Shown here one piece after another: positions 632-39,688 of a stretch of DNA of 64,000 bases (positions are counted from its first letter, which is position 1; every line of letters starts with the position of its first letter). Both the position numbers and the translations under genes were made by a program. Source of the stretch: Natrarchaeobaculum sulfurireducens (GTDB lineage Archaea; Halobacteriota; Halobacteria; Halobacteriales; Natrialbaceae); NCBI RefSeq assembly GCF_003430825.1, contig NZ_CP024047.1:1798001-1862000 (forward strand), given 5' to 3'. The notes beneath the pieces are model-generated. The model was not told where the DNA came from. It was given only the letters and a program-made list of their open reading frames with translations, and did not search any database.

Positions 632-1072
632 ATGAAACGATTACAGTTCACGCGGCGGAAACTGAGTATGAGTGTTGCAAGTGGAGTAGCGATGGTCACT
701 GCCGGATGTCTCGGTAGCAACGGCGACAGCGAGTACGAAGTCGACGTTATCGACCGAAGCTCCGACGATGCGGTCGCAGATTACCACGGACACTGGCACG
801 GCGAACTCCCATCGATTTCTCTCGAGGACAACGTCTCACTCGGTGCCGTCTTCGAGGACGAAGATGGCGAAGCGGTCGACCTCGGTGGTGAGTATAGCCT
901 CGACGTGGAACCGACGGACGAGGCCATCGTGAGCGCGGAGTCACACGGCGATCACGTCCACCTCTACGGCGAATCGGCAGGTGAAACAACGGTCACGTTC
1001 CAGTTATTCCACGACGACCACGTCGAGTGGGAAACCTCGGAAGCGATCGACGTCGAGGTTCTCGAGGAGTAG
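632..1072 (+). CDS. Lipoprotein with one histidine-rich HWH/GDHVH domain
   Basis: The 146-residue product starts with a Tat-like signal (TRRKL at residues 7-11, then a hydrophobic stretch) ending in a lipobox with Cys26, so it is probably lipid-anchored outside the membrane. The mature part is one compact domain of about 105 residues with eight histidines in three clusters: HGHWH (52-56), HGDHVH (105-110) and HDDH (127-130). The same order of clusters occurs twice in the protein at 35154 and once inside the metal-binding protein at 36354. The spacing suggests a beta-sandwich with the histidines brought together, probably to bind zinc or a similar ion. I do not recognise a named family. Function in metal capture is inference from the histidines and from the ABC-transporter context of its relatives; this copy stands alone. 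Confidence 0.85.
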   Translation: MKRLQFTRRKLSMSVASGVAMVTAGCLGSNGDSEYEVDVIDRSSDDAVADYHGHWHGELPSISLEDNVSLGAVFEDEDGEAVDLGGEYSLDVEPTDEAIVSAESHGDHVHLYGESAGETTVTFQLFHDDHVEWETSEAIDVEVLEE

Positions 1073-35153: not shown

Positions 35154-36152
35154 GTGAGTGACGAACGCCGATACGCATCCCGACGGAAGCTGCTCGCTGC
35201 GACCGGTTCGCTGACCGCACTCGGACTCGCCGGCTGTCTCGGTGACGAAGAGGGCGACGAGCCAGAGCCTGCCGACGACGGCGATGATGACCACGACGAT
35301 GATGATCATGACCATGACGACGATCACGACCACGACGACGGGGTCGCCGACGAGTACTTCGACGAGCTTGGCGTTGCCGACGAAGGATTCGTGATCCTCG
35401 ACCGGGCCCACGATCCCCACGAAGAGGTCGCGTACGTCCACGGCGACCACTGGCACGGCGACCTGCCGTCGATTCCCGTCGACGACAACGTTTCGATCGG
35501 TGCCGAGATCGAACTCGAGGATGGCGACGAACTCGAACTCGGCGACGAGTACGAACTCCGCGTCGCCGTGGCCCCGGACGAACCCGAGGGTGTCGTCGGC
35601 ATCGACGAGGACGACTACCACGGCGACCACGTTCACATCCACGGCGAACAGGAGGGTGTGACCGAGGTCGTGTTCATGATCTGGCACGACGACCACGCTG
35701 ACTACCAGAGTCCGCCGATCACGGCACAGGTCGTCGAGGAAGACGACGATCACGACCACGACCACGACGACGAGTACGTCAGTGAGTTCCAGCTCTTAGA
35801 CCGGGCCCACGACCCACACGAGGAGATCTCCTACGTCCACGGCGATCACTGGCACGGCGAGGACGACTTCCCGACGATCCCCGTTGGCGATAACGTCTCG
35901 ATCGGAGCCGAACTCGAGGACGCAGATGGTGACGAGATCGTCCTCGGCCCCGAGTACGAACTCGGCGTCGAACTCGCGGACGGTGCCGAAGAAGGTGTCG
36001 TCGAGATCGACGAGGACGAAGACTACCACGGCGACCACGTTCACATCCACGGCGAGTCCGCCGGGGAGACCGAGGTCGTCTTCACGCTCATCCACGACGA
36101 CCACGTCGACTACGAGACGCCGGCGCTCACCGTCACCGTTGGCGACGACTGA
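35154..36152 (+). CDS. Lipoprotein with two HWH/GDHVH domains and His-Asp linker
   Basis: 332 residues from GTG 35154. Signal ASRRKLLAATGSL with twin Arg and lipobox Cys28 (LAGC). A linker of about residues 37-63 is almost only Asp, Glu and His (for example DDDHDDDDHDHDD), itself a likely low-affinity metal sponge. Then two domains of about 115 residues, about 60 per cent alike, each with HDPHEE-x-YVHGDHWHG, DYHGDHVHIHGE and HDDH. A second short His/Asp linker (DDDHDHDHDD) joins them. Lying 200 bases upstream of a Znu-type ABC transporter whose binding protein carries the same domain, it is probably an external metal chaperone. Metal and affinity are inference. Confidence 0.88.
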   Translation: MSDERRYASRRKLLAATGSLTALGLAGCLGDEEGDEPEPADDGDDDHDDDDHDHDDDHDHDDGVADEYFDELGVADEGFVILDRAHDPHEEVAYVHGDHWHGDLPSIPVDDNVSIGAEIELEDGDELELGDEYELRVAVAPDEPEGVVGIDEDDYHGDHVHIHGEQEGVTEVVFMIWHDDHADYQSPPITAQVVEEDDDHDHDHDDEYVSEFQLLDRAHDPHEEISYVHGDHWHGEDDFPTIPVGDNVSIGAELEDADGDEIVLGPEYELGVELADGAEEGVVEIDEDEDYHGDHVHIHGESAGETEVVFTLIHDDHVDYETPALTVTVGDD

Positions 36153-36353: not shown

Positions 36354-37739
36354 ATGAATCAGACACGCCGCTCCGTGCTGAAAGCCGGTGCCGGGGCTCT
36401 CGCGTTTGGGGGACTCGCCGGTTGTCTCAGCGAACCGGAGGGAGAAGCAGGCGACCGAACCGGTTATGCCGCTTTCTTCGCCCTCTGGGACTGGGCCGAA
36501 CACGTTGCCGGCGACGAGTTCTCCTTCGAGAACCCGGTGACGACCGGCGAGATGGGTCACGGTTGGGAACCCGACGGCGACCTCGCCGCGGATATCGCGA
36601 CGACGGACGCGTTCATCTATCTCGACACCCCGGAGTTCTCGTGGGCCCAGGATATCGCCGCCCAGCTCGAGACCGACTACGACGACGTCGCCGTGATCGA
36701 TGGGATGGACGGCCTCGGGAGCCACCTCCTGCCGATCGACCGCGAGGTCGCCGCCGAACCCGATTATGACTACGAGTTCGATCCGGACAGCCTGGAGATC
36801 GGTGAGTTCGACGTGCTCGATGGCCGGACGGGCGAGGTGACTGCCTACTGGCACGTCGATCACTGGCACGAGAGTATTCCCGACGTTCCAGTCGGCGAGT
36901 CGGTCCCCATCGAGGGGGTCTTCGCGGACCCCGAGGGTCGGGTCCTCCCGCTCGGCGATGACGAGCAGTTCCAGTTCGACGCCAGACTGGCCGAAGGCGC
37001 TCCGGAGGGCGTCGTCGAGATCGAGTCCCACGGCGACCACGTCGAACTGCACGGGCTCGAGGCGAACCGGACGCTGCTCGTCTTCGAACTCGTCCACGAC
37101 GGTGAGGTGGTCTGGGACACCGCCGACGAGGGGATGGCGACGGACGTGGTCGAAGAACTCGACGACGAGGAAGCAGACGAGTTCGTCGACCCCCACGTCT
37201 GGGTCGATCCCGTCCTCGCACAGCAGGTCGTCGATAACATCGCAACGGGGCTTGGCGAGGTCGATCCCGACAACGCCGAGCTGTACGAGGAAAACGCCGC
37301 GGCGTATACCGAGCGACTCGAGGCGGTCGACCGACAGTTCGAGGAACTGGTCGAGAACGCCTCGAGAGACGTCGCGATTTTCGCCGGTCACGACTCCTAT
37401 CAGTACGTCGAACAGCGCTATGGCTTCGAGTTGTACACGCCCGTCGGTATCTCACCCGACGCGGCCGAGTCGTTCGAGGACATCTCGGGGATGGTCGACC
37501 TCGTCGAGGAATACGACATCGACACGGTCCTGTACGATCCGTTCGAGTCTCCTGACCCGGACGAACAGCTGCCGAGTATGGTCGAACTCCTCATCGAAGA
37601 CAGCCAGGTGACAGACGCCGAGCCGCTCAGTCCCGCCGAGGGGACGACCCACGAGTGGGACGAACAGGACTGGGGCTGGGTCGAGCAGATGGAAGAAGTG
37701 AACCTTCGCTCGCTCAGGAAGGCACTCGATGTGTCGTAA
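36354..37739 (+). CDS. znuA: ZnuA-type metal-binding lipoprotein with inserted HWH domain
   Basis: 461 residues from ATG 36354; a TTG six bases earlier is not needed. Tat-like signal TRRSVLKAGAG and lipobox Cys24. The cluster 9 (ZnuA/PsaA) fold is visible: His69 in GEMGHGWEP, His281 in DPHVWVDP, His346 in AGHDSYQYV and the acidic ligand region YDPFESPD (Asp395). Usual family members carry a His-rich flexible loop between the first and second ligands; here that position (about 150-270) is filled by a complete HWH/GDHVH domain with HVDHWH (167-172), SHGDHVELHG and FELVHDGEV. The protein delivers zinc or manganese to ZnuB. Confidence 0.93.
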   Translation: MNQTRRSVLKAGAGALAFGGLAGCLSEPEGEAGDRTGYAAFFALWDWAEHVAGDEFSFENPVTTGEMGHGWEPDGDLAADIATTDAFIYLDTPEFSWAQDIAAQLETDYDDVAVIDGMDGLGSHLLPIDREVAAEPDYDYEFDPDSLEIGEFDVLDGRTGEVTAYWHVDHWHESIPDVPVGESVPIEGVFADPEGRVLPLGDDEQFQFDARLAEGAPEGVVEIESHGDHVELHGLEANRTLLVFELVHDGEVVWDTADEGMATDVVEELDDEEADEFVDPHVWVDPVLAQQVVDNIATGLGEVDPDNAELYEENAAAYTERLEAVDRQFEELVENASRDVAIFAGHDSYQYVEQRYGFELYTPVGISPDAAESFEDISGMVDLVEEYDIDTVLYDPFESPDPDEQLPSMVELLIEDSQVTDAEPLSPAEGTTHEWDEQDWGWVEQMEEVNLRSLRKALDVS

Positions 37740-37835: not shown

Positions 37836-38579
37836 GTGAGTTCGGTCGTCACCGTCGAAGACGTTTCGTTCGCCTACGGCGAGAAAGCCGCGATAGAAGA
37901 CATTTCGCTGTCGATCGACGCAGGTGACTTCGTCGGCCTGATCGGCCCGAACGGGTCGGGCAAGACGACGCTGCTTCATCTGATGCTCGGGCTCAAACGG
38001 CCCGACTCCGGCTCGATCACGTTGTTCGGCGAGCCGATCGACGAGTTCGACGACGGCGAACGGATCGGCTACGTCTCTCAGCACTCGACCGACCGGGGCA
38101 GTACGATGCCGGTTACCGTCCGCGAAGTCGTCACGATGGGCCGGTTCGCCCACGTCGGTCGCTCACCACTCGGCACCGACGACCACGAGATCGTCGACGA
38201 GGCGCTCGAAACAGTCGAAATCACTGATCTGGCGGACAGACGGGTCAACCAGCTCTCGGGCGGTCAGCGCCAGCGGACGTTCATCGCGCGGGCGCTCGCC
38301 TCCGAGGCCGACCTGCTGGCACTCGACGAGCCGACCGTCGGCGTCGACGCGGAGTCTCGAGAGCACTTCTACGGAATGCTCGACGACCTCAACCGACAGG
38401 GGATCACGATCATCCTCATCGAACACGACATCGACATCCTCACGAAACACGTCAACAAGGTCGCCTGTATCAACAGGGAACTGTACCACCACGGAGATAC
38501 CATCTCGTTCCTCGAGAGCGAGGCGCTGTCGAAGGCGTACGGGGCCGCCCACGGCGTCATCGAACACGATCACCCATGA
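37836..38579 (+). CDS. znuC: Metal ABC transporter ATP-binding protein
   Basis: 247 residues from GTG 37836. Complete ABC motifs: Walker A GPNGSGKTT, Q-loop in YVSQHST, signature LSGGQRQR, Walker B LLALDEPTVGVD and switch His in LIEHDID. The C-terminal His cluster GAAHGVIEHDHP fits ZnuC. 97 bases after the binding protein with its own possible TATA (AATTAAACC at about 37798). The stop overlaps the permease start (ATGA). Confidence 0.94.
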   Translation: MSSVVTVEDVSFAYGEKAAIEDISLSIDAGDFVGLIGPNGSGKTTLLHLMLGLKRPDSGSITLFGEPIDEFDDGERIGYVSQHSTDRGSTMPVTVREVVTMGRFAHVGRSPLGTDDHEIVDEALETVEITDLADRRVNQLSGGQRQRTFIARALASEADLLALDEPTVGVDAESREHFYGMLDDLNRQGITIILIEHDIDILTKHVNKVACINRELYHHGDTISFLESEALSKAYGAAHGVIEHDHP

Positions 38580-39688
38580 GTCTGGATACGAAGAACGTCG
38601 ACGGAGCCGGCGGGCCGGTGGCAAATCTCACGGCGTGGCTGGGATGGTTCAGGCCCCAGCACCGCCGGGAGTGGGTCGAACTCGGCGGGATCGTGCTGAC
38701 CGCCCTTCTCGGTGTCGCGATGATCGGCTACATCCTCCTCGACTGGCTGCGCTTTGCGCCCGAATGGGCCGTGATTGGCCCGTACGCCGATCTGTTGTTC
38801 AGTCAGTTCATCGTCGCGGGAATGTGGATGGATCACTACCTCGGGACGAACGTCTTCAGCCACCCGTTCATGTGGCGGGCGATCGCCACCGGCGTGTTGA
38901 TCGGGATCGTCGCGCCGCTGGTGGGAACCTACCTCGTCCATCGGCAGATGGCACTCATCGGAGAAACGCTTGCCCACACCGCCTTCGCAGGCGTCGCCGT
39001 CGGCCTCCTGTTCATCGCGTTGACCGGTTGGACTGGCTCGCTGTTGTTCGTCGCGTTGATCGTGAGCGCCCTCGGCGCGATCGGGCTCCAGTGGCTCACC
39101 GATCGAACCAACACGTACGGGGACGTTCCAATCGCGATCGTCTTGAGCGGGAGTTTCGCCGTTGGCACGTTGCTCATCAGCTGGGGCCGCGATTTCACCT
39201 CGCTCGCGATCGATATCGAGGGCTTTCTCTTCGGCAGTCTGGCCATCGTCACCGCCGAAGGGGCGCGACTGGTCGCTGCGCTCAGCGTCGTCGTCGTCAT
39301 TCTCGTGGCGCTCAATTACAAACAGCTCCTGTTTATCACGTTCGACGAGCAGGCCGCTCGCGTCGCCCGTCTCGACGTCGACCGGTACAACACCCTGTTG
39401 ATCGTCATGACCGCCGTCGTCGTCGTCGGTGCGATGCAGATCCTCGGCGTGATTCTCGTCGCGGCGATGCTCGTCGTCCCGGTCGCGACGGCGTCACAGG
39501 TCGCCGAAAGCTTTCGTGAAACGTTGTTTCTCTCGATTCTGTTCGGACAGCTGTCGGTCCTCGGTGGACTGGCGTTTGCGATCAGTGCAAGTCTTCCCCC
39601 TGGTGGCTCGATCGTGGTCGTTGCGATTAGTTTTTACTTGCTTTCGATCGTTGCATCCGGCCGATCGACAGCCATCTCGATGCACTGA
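38576..39688 (+). CDS. znuB: Metal ABC transporter permease
   Basis: 370 residues with about eight membrane segments, and an unusually long N-terminal region (about 65 residues before the first conserved helices). ABC-3 family motif GIVAPLVGTYLVHRQMALIGETLAHTAFAGVAVG and the EAA-like loop between the third and fourth helices are visible. Forms the channel for the zinc/manganese importer with ZnuA and ZnuC; translationally coupled to znuC. Confidence 0.93.
   Translation: MSLDTKNVDGAGGPVANLTAWLGWFRPQHRREWVELGGIVLTALLGVAMIGYILLDWLRFAPEWAVIGPYADLLFSQFIVAGMWMDHYLGTNVFSHPFMWRAIATGVLIGIVAPLVGTYLVHRQMALIGETLAHTAFAGVAVGLLFIALTGWTGSLLFVALIVSALGAIGLQWLTDRTNTYGDVPIAIVLSGSFAVGTLLISWGRDFTSLAIDIEGFLFGSLAIVTAEGARLVAALSVVVVILVALNYKQLLFITFDEQAARVARLDVDRYNTLLIVMTAVVVVGAMQILGVILVAAMLVVPVATASQVAESFRETLFLSILFGQLSVLGGLAFAISASLPPGGSIVVVAISFYLLSIVASGRSTAISMH

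Follow-up and report, generated by a model that had tools for sequence, protein, structure and literature searches.

The window, that is, the whole 64,000-nucleotide stretch of Natrarchaeobaculum sulfurireducens DNA analysed here, carries four genes on the plus strand between 35154 and 39688, in the order lipoprotein, solute-binding protein, ATPase and permease. A further lipoprotein of the same domain family is encoded near its start. Positions are counted from the first letter of the window.

632..1072, + strand: separate single-domain lipoprotein of 146 residues, from the domain family of the insert (tblastn and Smith-Waterman)
35154..36152, + strand: upstream lipoprotein of 332 residues, with a Tat-like signal, a lipobox, a His/Asp-rich linker and two tandem domains (open reading frame and model)
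35388..35741, + strand: lipoprotein domain A, with both HxxHxH triads (homology to the insert; triad scan)
35784..36149, + strand: lipoprotein domain B, with both HxxHxH triads (homology to the insert; triad scan)
36354..37739, + strand: znuA-type gene for a cluster A-I metal-binding protein of 461 residues (translation; PF01297; core structure match)
36558..36560, + strand: H69, predicted first ligand of the core site (invariant in 51 aligned proteins)
36804..37157, + strand: inserted domain, residues 151–268, predicted Ig-like β-sandwich (four homologous copies; eleven strands; full-length domain-model match)
36852..36869, + strand: insert motif 1, HVDHWH, an HxxHxH triad, residues 167–172
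37029..37055, + strand: insert motif 2, HGDHVELHG, residues 226–234, in which E231 breaks the triad
37089..37109, + strand: insert motif 3, LVHDGEV, residues 246–252, in which the second His is lost
37194..37196, + strand: H281, predicted second ligand (invariant in 51 aligned proteins)
37389..37391, + strand: H346, predicted third ligand (invariant in 51 aligned proteins)
37536..37538, + strand: D395, candidate fourth ligand by inferred role (Asp in 50 of 51 aligned proteins, X in the remaining row)
37836..38579, + strand: ABC transporter ATPase, ZnuC-like (Walker A and ABC signature read in the translation)
38576..39688, + strand: membrane permease, ZnuB-like (hydrophobic frame with a 4-base overlap with the ATPase gene)

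The ZnuA-type protein starts with a Tat-like signal and a lipobox (LAGC) and is matched by PF01297 (ZnuA) over residues 39–428 at 150.6 bits (E 7.8e-44; curated cut-off 29). Its predicted structure (m6531bc1443f9; 51 rows; mean pLDDT 84.1) adopts the two-lobe fold of this class, as testified by a match to 7jj8_A with a Foldseek E-value of 1.0e-16 and a TM score of 0.85 by target length; the core also matches AdcA, ZnuA and AztC structures. The three conserved histidine ligands of the ZnuA cleft are represented by H69, H281 and H346, and the protein is predicted to bind Zn2+.

The inserted domain is situated between the ligands H69 and H281. An earlier note on this DNA had placed it at 36840–37150, where a domain indeed lies, although its true extent is slightly longer, and had listed the three motifs in the order in which we find them. 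No Pfam or NCBIfam model matches residues 151–268, even at an E-value of 1, and the insert matches the domain model over its full length (1–116 of 116). In the model of the ZnuA-type protein the insert is made up of eleven strands with block-mean pLDDT values of 77–96, its placement relative to the core being uncertain (pTM 0.67). The same strand order appears twice in the model of the upstream lipoprotein (m88b098a4e49b; 23 rows; mean pLDDT 83.3), once for each of its domains, and the structural similarity on which the proposal of the earlier note depended is thus borne out by the predicted structures. The closest solved folds to the lipoprotein domains are Ig-like, with Z scores of 9.3 to 9hcj and 8.6 to SbsC. 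We searched for a more specific known fold and rejected the idea, the matches being spread over many unrelated Ig-like proteins with none better than 9hcj; the Ig-like arrangement is common and uninformative on the function of the domain.

Four other copies of the domain are present in this genome: two in the upstream lipoprotein, one at 632–1072 and a fifth overall at G000:C3:388433-388771, in a protein with no obvious lipobox. Compared with these four, the insert gives tblastn E-values of 2.0e-12 to 3.8e-19 and Smith-Waterman z scores of 18.9–28.4 (500 shuffles each), far beyond chance. Triad 1 is absent from the two secreted copies outside the operon, one of which has triad 2 and the other neither. 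The domain found no match on plasmids. A common regulatory word upstream of the lipoprotein, the znuA-type gene and the two other copies was considered and dropped, as only one chance-like 12-mer was shared. The only other ZnuA-family protein of the genome (a 348-residue frame; L179, G000:C3:2713042-2713995) has neither the insert nor a His-rich loop, and its gene adjoins an ATPase gene and a regulator-like frame, read as DtxR-type from its sequence.

Species genomes were scanned with 13 insert-bearing proteins, which yielded 61 loci: 42 with the insert, 16 without it and three unscorable fragments (L114, L116 and L117). Insertless loci are under-sampled in these counts, because the query consisted of insert bearers. 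The insert-bearing form of ZnuA is a widespread haloarchaeal subfamily, and the domain itself occurs in 50 of the 117 genomes of the family and in 19 of the 295 genomes of the phylum sample. In close insertless relatives, a disordered His/Asp-rich loop occupies the position of the insert, as had been proposed: a full domain stands where the flexible His loop is otherwise found, in the interval between the first and second ligands. The spacing of these two ligands is 209–221 residues in all 40 aligned insert bearers versus 73–151 in all 11 aligned insertless relatives. From the last strand of the first lobe to the second ligand, the latter have loops of 23–101 residues with 2–26 His, whereas the insert bearers retain 0–4 His outside the domain. 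Many free lipoproteins carry a His/Asp-rich stretch in their N-terminal linker instead. At one locus (L055, 5326-6810, minus strand), an insert-bearing ZnuA has kept a long His/Asp-rich loop immediately ahead of the insert; this protein, with both elements, is a possible intermediate.

The insert and the free domain proteins occur together at most of the insert loci. A domain protein is encoded in the fetched flank of 31 of the 42 insert loci and of none of the 16 scorable insertless ones, and in 31 of 31 cases it lies upstream on the same strand, with another downstream in L092. Among the 11 insert loci with no flanking copy, L058 and L099 have no upstream sequence, two have 2.5–3.1 kb and the other seven over 5.7 kb. 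Of the eight insert genomes with no adjacent lipoprotein, four have copies elsewhere and four (Natronorubrum sulfidifaciens, N. thiooxidans, N. bangense and J07HX64) have the insert alone, so that the partner is not obligatory. Whole-genome searches of the 16 insertless genomes found a domain copy in three and none in 13, and in L039 a domain lipoprotein lies upstream of an insertless ZnuA. The covariation of insert and lipoprotein that had been put forward as a check therefore holds as a marked co-occurrence, but the four insert-only genomes, the three insertless genomes with a copy and L039 refute it in its strict form.

The histidine motifs are unequally preserved in inserts and free domains. 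Residues were counted in 52 distinct inserts and 60 free lipoprotein domains, after dropping domains with incomplete model coverage. In motif 1, H167, H170 and W171 are invariant in the inserts (52/52) and H172 is present in 50/52, while the three His are found in 55, 55 and 35 of the 60 free domains. In motif 2, H226, H229 and H231 occur in 17, 26 and 4 of the 52 inserts versus 51, 52 and 36 of the 60 free domains. Thinning to 70% identity left 33 inserts and 40 free domains, among which H172 is found in 32/33 and 24/40 (p 1.7e-4) and H251 of motif 3 in 1/33 and 24/40 (p 1.8e-7); the shift at H231 gives p 4.1e-4, and all three p values ignore ancestry. The earlier remark that the last His pair is partly lost is correct as far as motif 3 goes, but motif 2 decays as well and motif 1 is kept. 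Taken by triads, the inserts have triad 1 intact in 50/52, triad 2 in 4/52 and triad 1 alone in 46/52. Both triads are intact in 29/60 lipoprotein domains, 4/13 domains of long proteins, 7/7 methanogen domains and 4/52 inserts, and neither is intact in 18/60 free lipoprotein domains. The HxxHxH pattern of the streptococcal Pht proteins is thus seen once in the insert (36852–36869) and twice in each domain of the upstream lipoprotein; since it also arises in 301 of 20,000 shuffled insert sequences, one such triad alone is weak evidence. At Natronococcus-type loci (L067, L071, L072, L073 and L090), an extra single-domain lipoprotein of 159–178 residues lies upstream; in the copies that we read, motif 1 is lost (DGDGW and similar), which suggests a non-metal paralogue.

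In a tree of the domains, a single clade (SH-aLRT 98) unites 36 of the 41 thinned inserts and contains no free domain. The insert accordingly represents a lineage that separated long ago, rather than a duplicate of the domain now beside it, and recent copying from the neighbouring lipoprotein is rejected. The gain of the domain from a lipoprotein ancestor, as once suggested, finds no support here, most inserts having their own clade and the tree giving no direction of transfer. Five divergent inserts (L025, L099, L164, L172 and L177) fall outside the main clade in this tree of few columns and may be older or represent separate events. On the tree of the ZnuA core, the presence of the insert requires four changes. 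Halobiforma nitratireducens, which has the insert, and H. haloterrestris, which does not, are sisters (98), so that a change, be it gain or loss, occurs within a genus.

The domain is also found in long proteins of 763–1049 residues, with one to three domains each, in Halorutilus salinus and some Natrialbaceae; two sets of these are near znuA (L092 and L170), and one long protein has a PGF-CTERM-like C-terminal signal (TIGR04126, E 0.0013, below the cut-off). In L036, L037, L038/L092, L170 and L175 the domain alternates with a further, unnamed repeat of the pattern NEHACLHG...WNVTY...FVFY, and a conserved protein of 565–638 residues follows the long surface proteins in L036, L037, L170 and L175. 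Genes for CobW-type GTPases (PF02492), a family often tied to zinc stress, adjoin domain proteins in L091 and L036. As a general operon neighbour this GTPase was discarded, the motif being found in only 2 of 42 insert loci. Outside the haloarchaea, three genomes of a single methanogen genus, in which mcrA was found, encode domain proteins whose C-terminal membrane segments were read from the sequence; in L160, L161 and L163 such proteins adjoin genes that read as formate dehydrogenase-like. L159 and L162 (methanogen genomes G156 and G096) encode secreted proteins that have two domains with the His motifs described above and a PGF-like C-terminal segment. Their genes lie between CbiM and genes read as those of cobalamin biosynthesis, and in L159 CbiQ is close by, a context that hints at a variant of the system for cobalt.

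Habitat could be assigned for 48 of 58 loci, and 31 of 35 insert loci versus 1 of 13 insertless ones were scored as alkaliphile or soda-lake. Strain names or papers provide 20 of the alkaline assignments, 19 with the insert and one without. The remaining alkaline assignments and every neutral one reflect what we take to be the habitat of the organism, and so do the four insert bearers scored neutral (L069, L090, L092 and L097), presumably counter-examples. Another counter-example is Natronoglomus mannanivorans, from a soda lake, which has one free copy and no insert. The association (Fisher p 3.0e-7) ignores ancestry and is confounded by kinship; on the tree there are about three independent habitat-insert pairs, which mostly agree and are too few for significance. 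Some of the strains and metagenome-assembled genomes (MAGs) are of soda-lake origin (PMC9726719, PMC4766312, PMC6146748), and the nearest named relative is, at 93%, a MAG from the Bitter-1 brine, of pH 10.2 (PMC4766312). The selective pressure is probably the low free zinc of alkaline carbonate brines, and the insert would be a candidate adaptation to soda-lake chemistry, in which little free zinc is expected.

Many haloarchaea, mostly from soda lakes, thus share one domain between their zinc solute-binding protein and the surface proteins of neighbouring genes, and this arrangement suggests that zinc passes from copy to copy. We consider such a hand-off, which would run from domains anchored at the surface through the insert to the ZnuA pocket, the best explanation, at slightly better than even confidence. 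Scarce Zn2+ would be captured outside the membrane by the anchored lipoproteins and, in some species, by the long surface proteins, whose one to three Ig-like domains would each offer one or two HxxHxH triads. The insert, standing in the solute-binding protein in place of the flexible His loop, would be the docking site and an acceptor with a single triad, from which zinc would move on to the adjacent pocket of three His (H69, H281, H346 and probably D395) and then through the ZnuCB permease. A folded one-triad domain that replaces the loop and is homologous to a two-triad neighbour would fit such a docking and hand-off role. The domain, its homology and position, the replacement of the loop, the unequal motifs and the co-occurrence are shown; metal binding, docking, transfer and the direction of transfer are inferred. 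The insert-only genomes, the free lipoprotein domains with neither triad, the two secreted copies that lack triad 1 and the mixed results on the C. diphtheriae motif described below count against this explanation. The loop and the insert share a position and are near-exclusive in His content, as would also be the case if the insert were an intramolecular zinc sponge that replaces the His loop one for one, the lipoproteins being separate stores with no transfer between them; the four genomes with an insert and no free copy agree with this, and a local site would be served by the conserved triad alone. However, a plain loop would suffice for a sponge, and the neighbour co-occurrence and the same domain family on both sides would become a coincidence or mere co-regulation; we regard this explanation as unlikely, if still to be reckoned with.

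The decay of motifs 2 and 3 in the inserts, and the frequency of Ig-like folds in surface layers and adhesins (SbsC, Sap), would suit a domain for docking, dimerisation or envelope positioning whose histidines are remnants. Yet motif 1 is better kept in the inserts than in free domains, at H172 above all, the opposite of what is expected of remnants, and we find this improbable. Slighter still are the chances that the system serves other or several transition metals (cobalt, nickel, manganese), with zinc not the chief one. The methanogen domain proteins beside cobalamin, CbiM/CbiQ cobalt transport and formate dehydrogenase-like genes point that way, and the sequence does not settle the specificity of the solute-binding protein; against it stand the three His of the core site and the His-rich loop of the insertless sisters, a feature held to indicate zinc specificity (PMC7463823). 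Beyond the zinc hand-off, which we prefer, we propose only tentatively, and with some doubt, that this is a modular archaeal metal-capture domain, absent from Pfam and NCBIfam, which would form a bucket brigade from giant proteins to lipoproteins to the solute-binding protein. It would be parallel to, and not recognisably homologous with, the actinobacterial system, selected in alkaline brines and, in the methanogen genus, placed beside cobalt import. Importer proteins that are near-sisters, one with a disordered His loop and the other with a folded domain at that position, make a natural pair for testing the role of the loop.

The insert and its domain are undescribed in the open-access literature searched on haloarchaeal ZnuA, ZnuA domain insertion, haloalkaliphilic zinc transport and zinc uptake lipoproteins, as far as the accessible portions of these sources go; the available text on the two znu operons of Haloferax volcanii mentions no insert (PMC8155600). 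The best-studied system of similar layout is the Znu transporter of Corynebacterium diphtheriae, ZnuAECB with ZnuF, ZnuG and CmrA (PMC12445094), in which, as here, neighbouring and surface proteins share a His motif in one to several copies; there the system is zinc-regulated. The ligands of its solute-binding protein, H63 and H317, are spaced by 254 residues versus 212 here, both with extra residues. Its motif, HxD/HxH, about 150 residues apart and reversed in ZnuA, differs from the haloarchaeal domain, and results on the role of the motif are mixed: His-to-Ala mutants retained the zinc response, and the surface proteins ZnuF and ZnuG held back growth in the absence of the transporter (PMC12445094). 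TIGR03772, the model of anchored-repeat solute-binding proteins, matches the ZnuA-type protein over residues 278–396 only, at 62.1 bits against a cut-off of 350.45. The repeat model TIGR03769, of only 41 positions, stays below its cut-off throughout the genome, its best match (E 0.609) lying elsewhere. By these family models the protein falls outside the actinobacterial anchored-repeat family, a distant kinship being still conceivable; among the 40 of 69 records listed by a search of plasmids, none was actinobacterial by name.

The streptococcal AdcA, the best structural match of the core (7jj8), combines, as here, a ZnuA core with a second zinc-binding domain. There the added domain resembles ZinT and stands at the C-terminus, and AdcA retains its His-rich loop (PMC3842936). 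A similar layout is seen in Streptococcus pneumoniae, where surface HxxHxH proteins give zinc to a cluster A-I solute-binding protein of the same operon, and where a single triad of PhtD (H83, H86 and H88, with E63) binds zinc and passes it to AdcAII (PMC3842936). The Pht repeats are short and three-stranded versus the Ig-like domain here, and AdcAII was modelled with no His-rich loop and, in the accessible part of that account, with no mention of a related insert (PMC3842936); no Pht model is among the Pfam and NCBIfam matches at E up to 1, libraries that may hold none. In Paracoccus denitrificans, AztD transfers zinc directly into AztC through a flexible loop that precedes the second ligand (residues 117–133), a transfer that requires this loop and its three His (PMC7463823). 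The donor AztD is a β-propeller, and zinc is received there by a short, disordered loop, unlike the folded insert here (PMC7463823), and NF040870 (AztC) scores 80 bits against the ZnuA-type protein, below its cut-off of 350. By analogy, the hand-off would operate like those of PhtD-AdcAII, AztD-AztC and the actinobacterial anchored-repeat transporters. Archaea, too, may have zinc relays of the Pht/AdcAII and AztD/AztC type, built from an undescribed domain.
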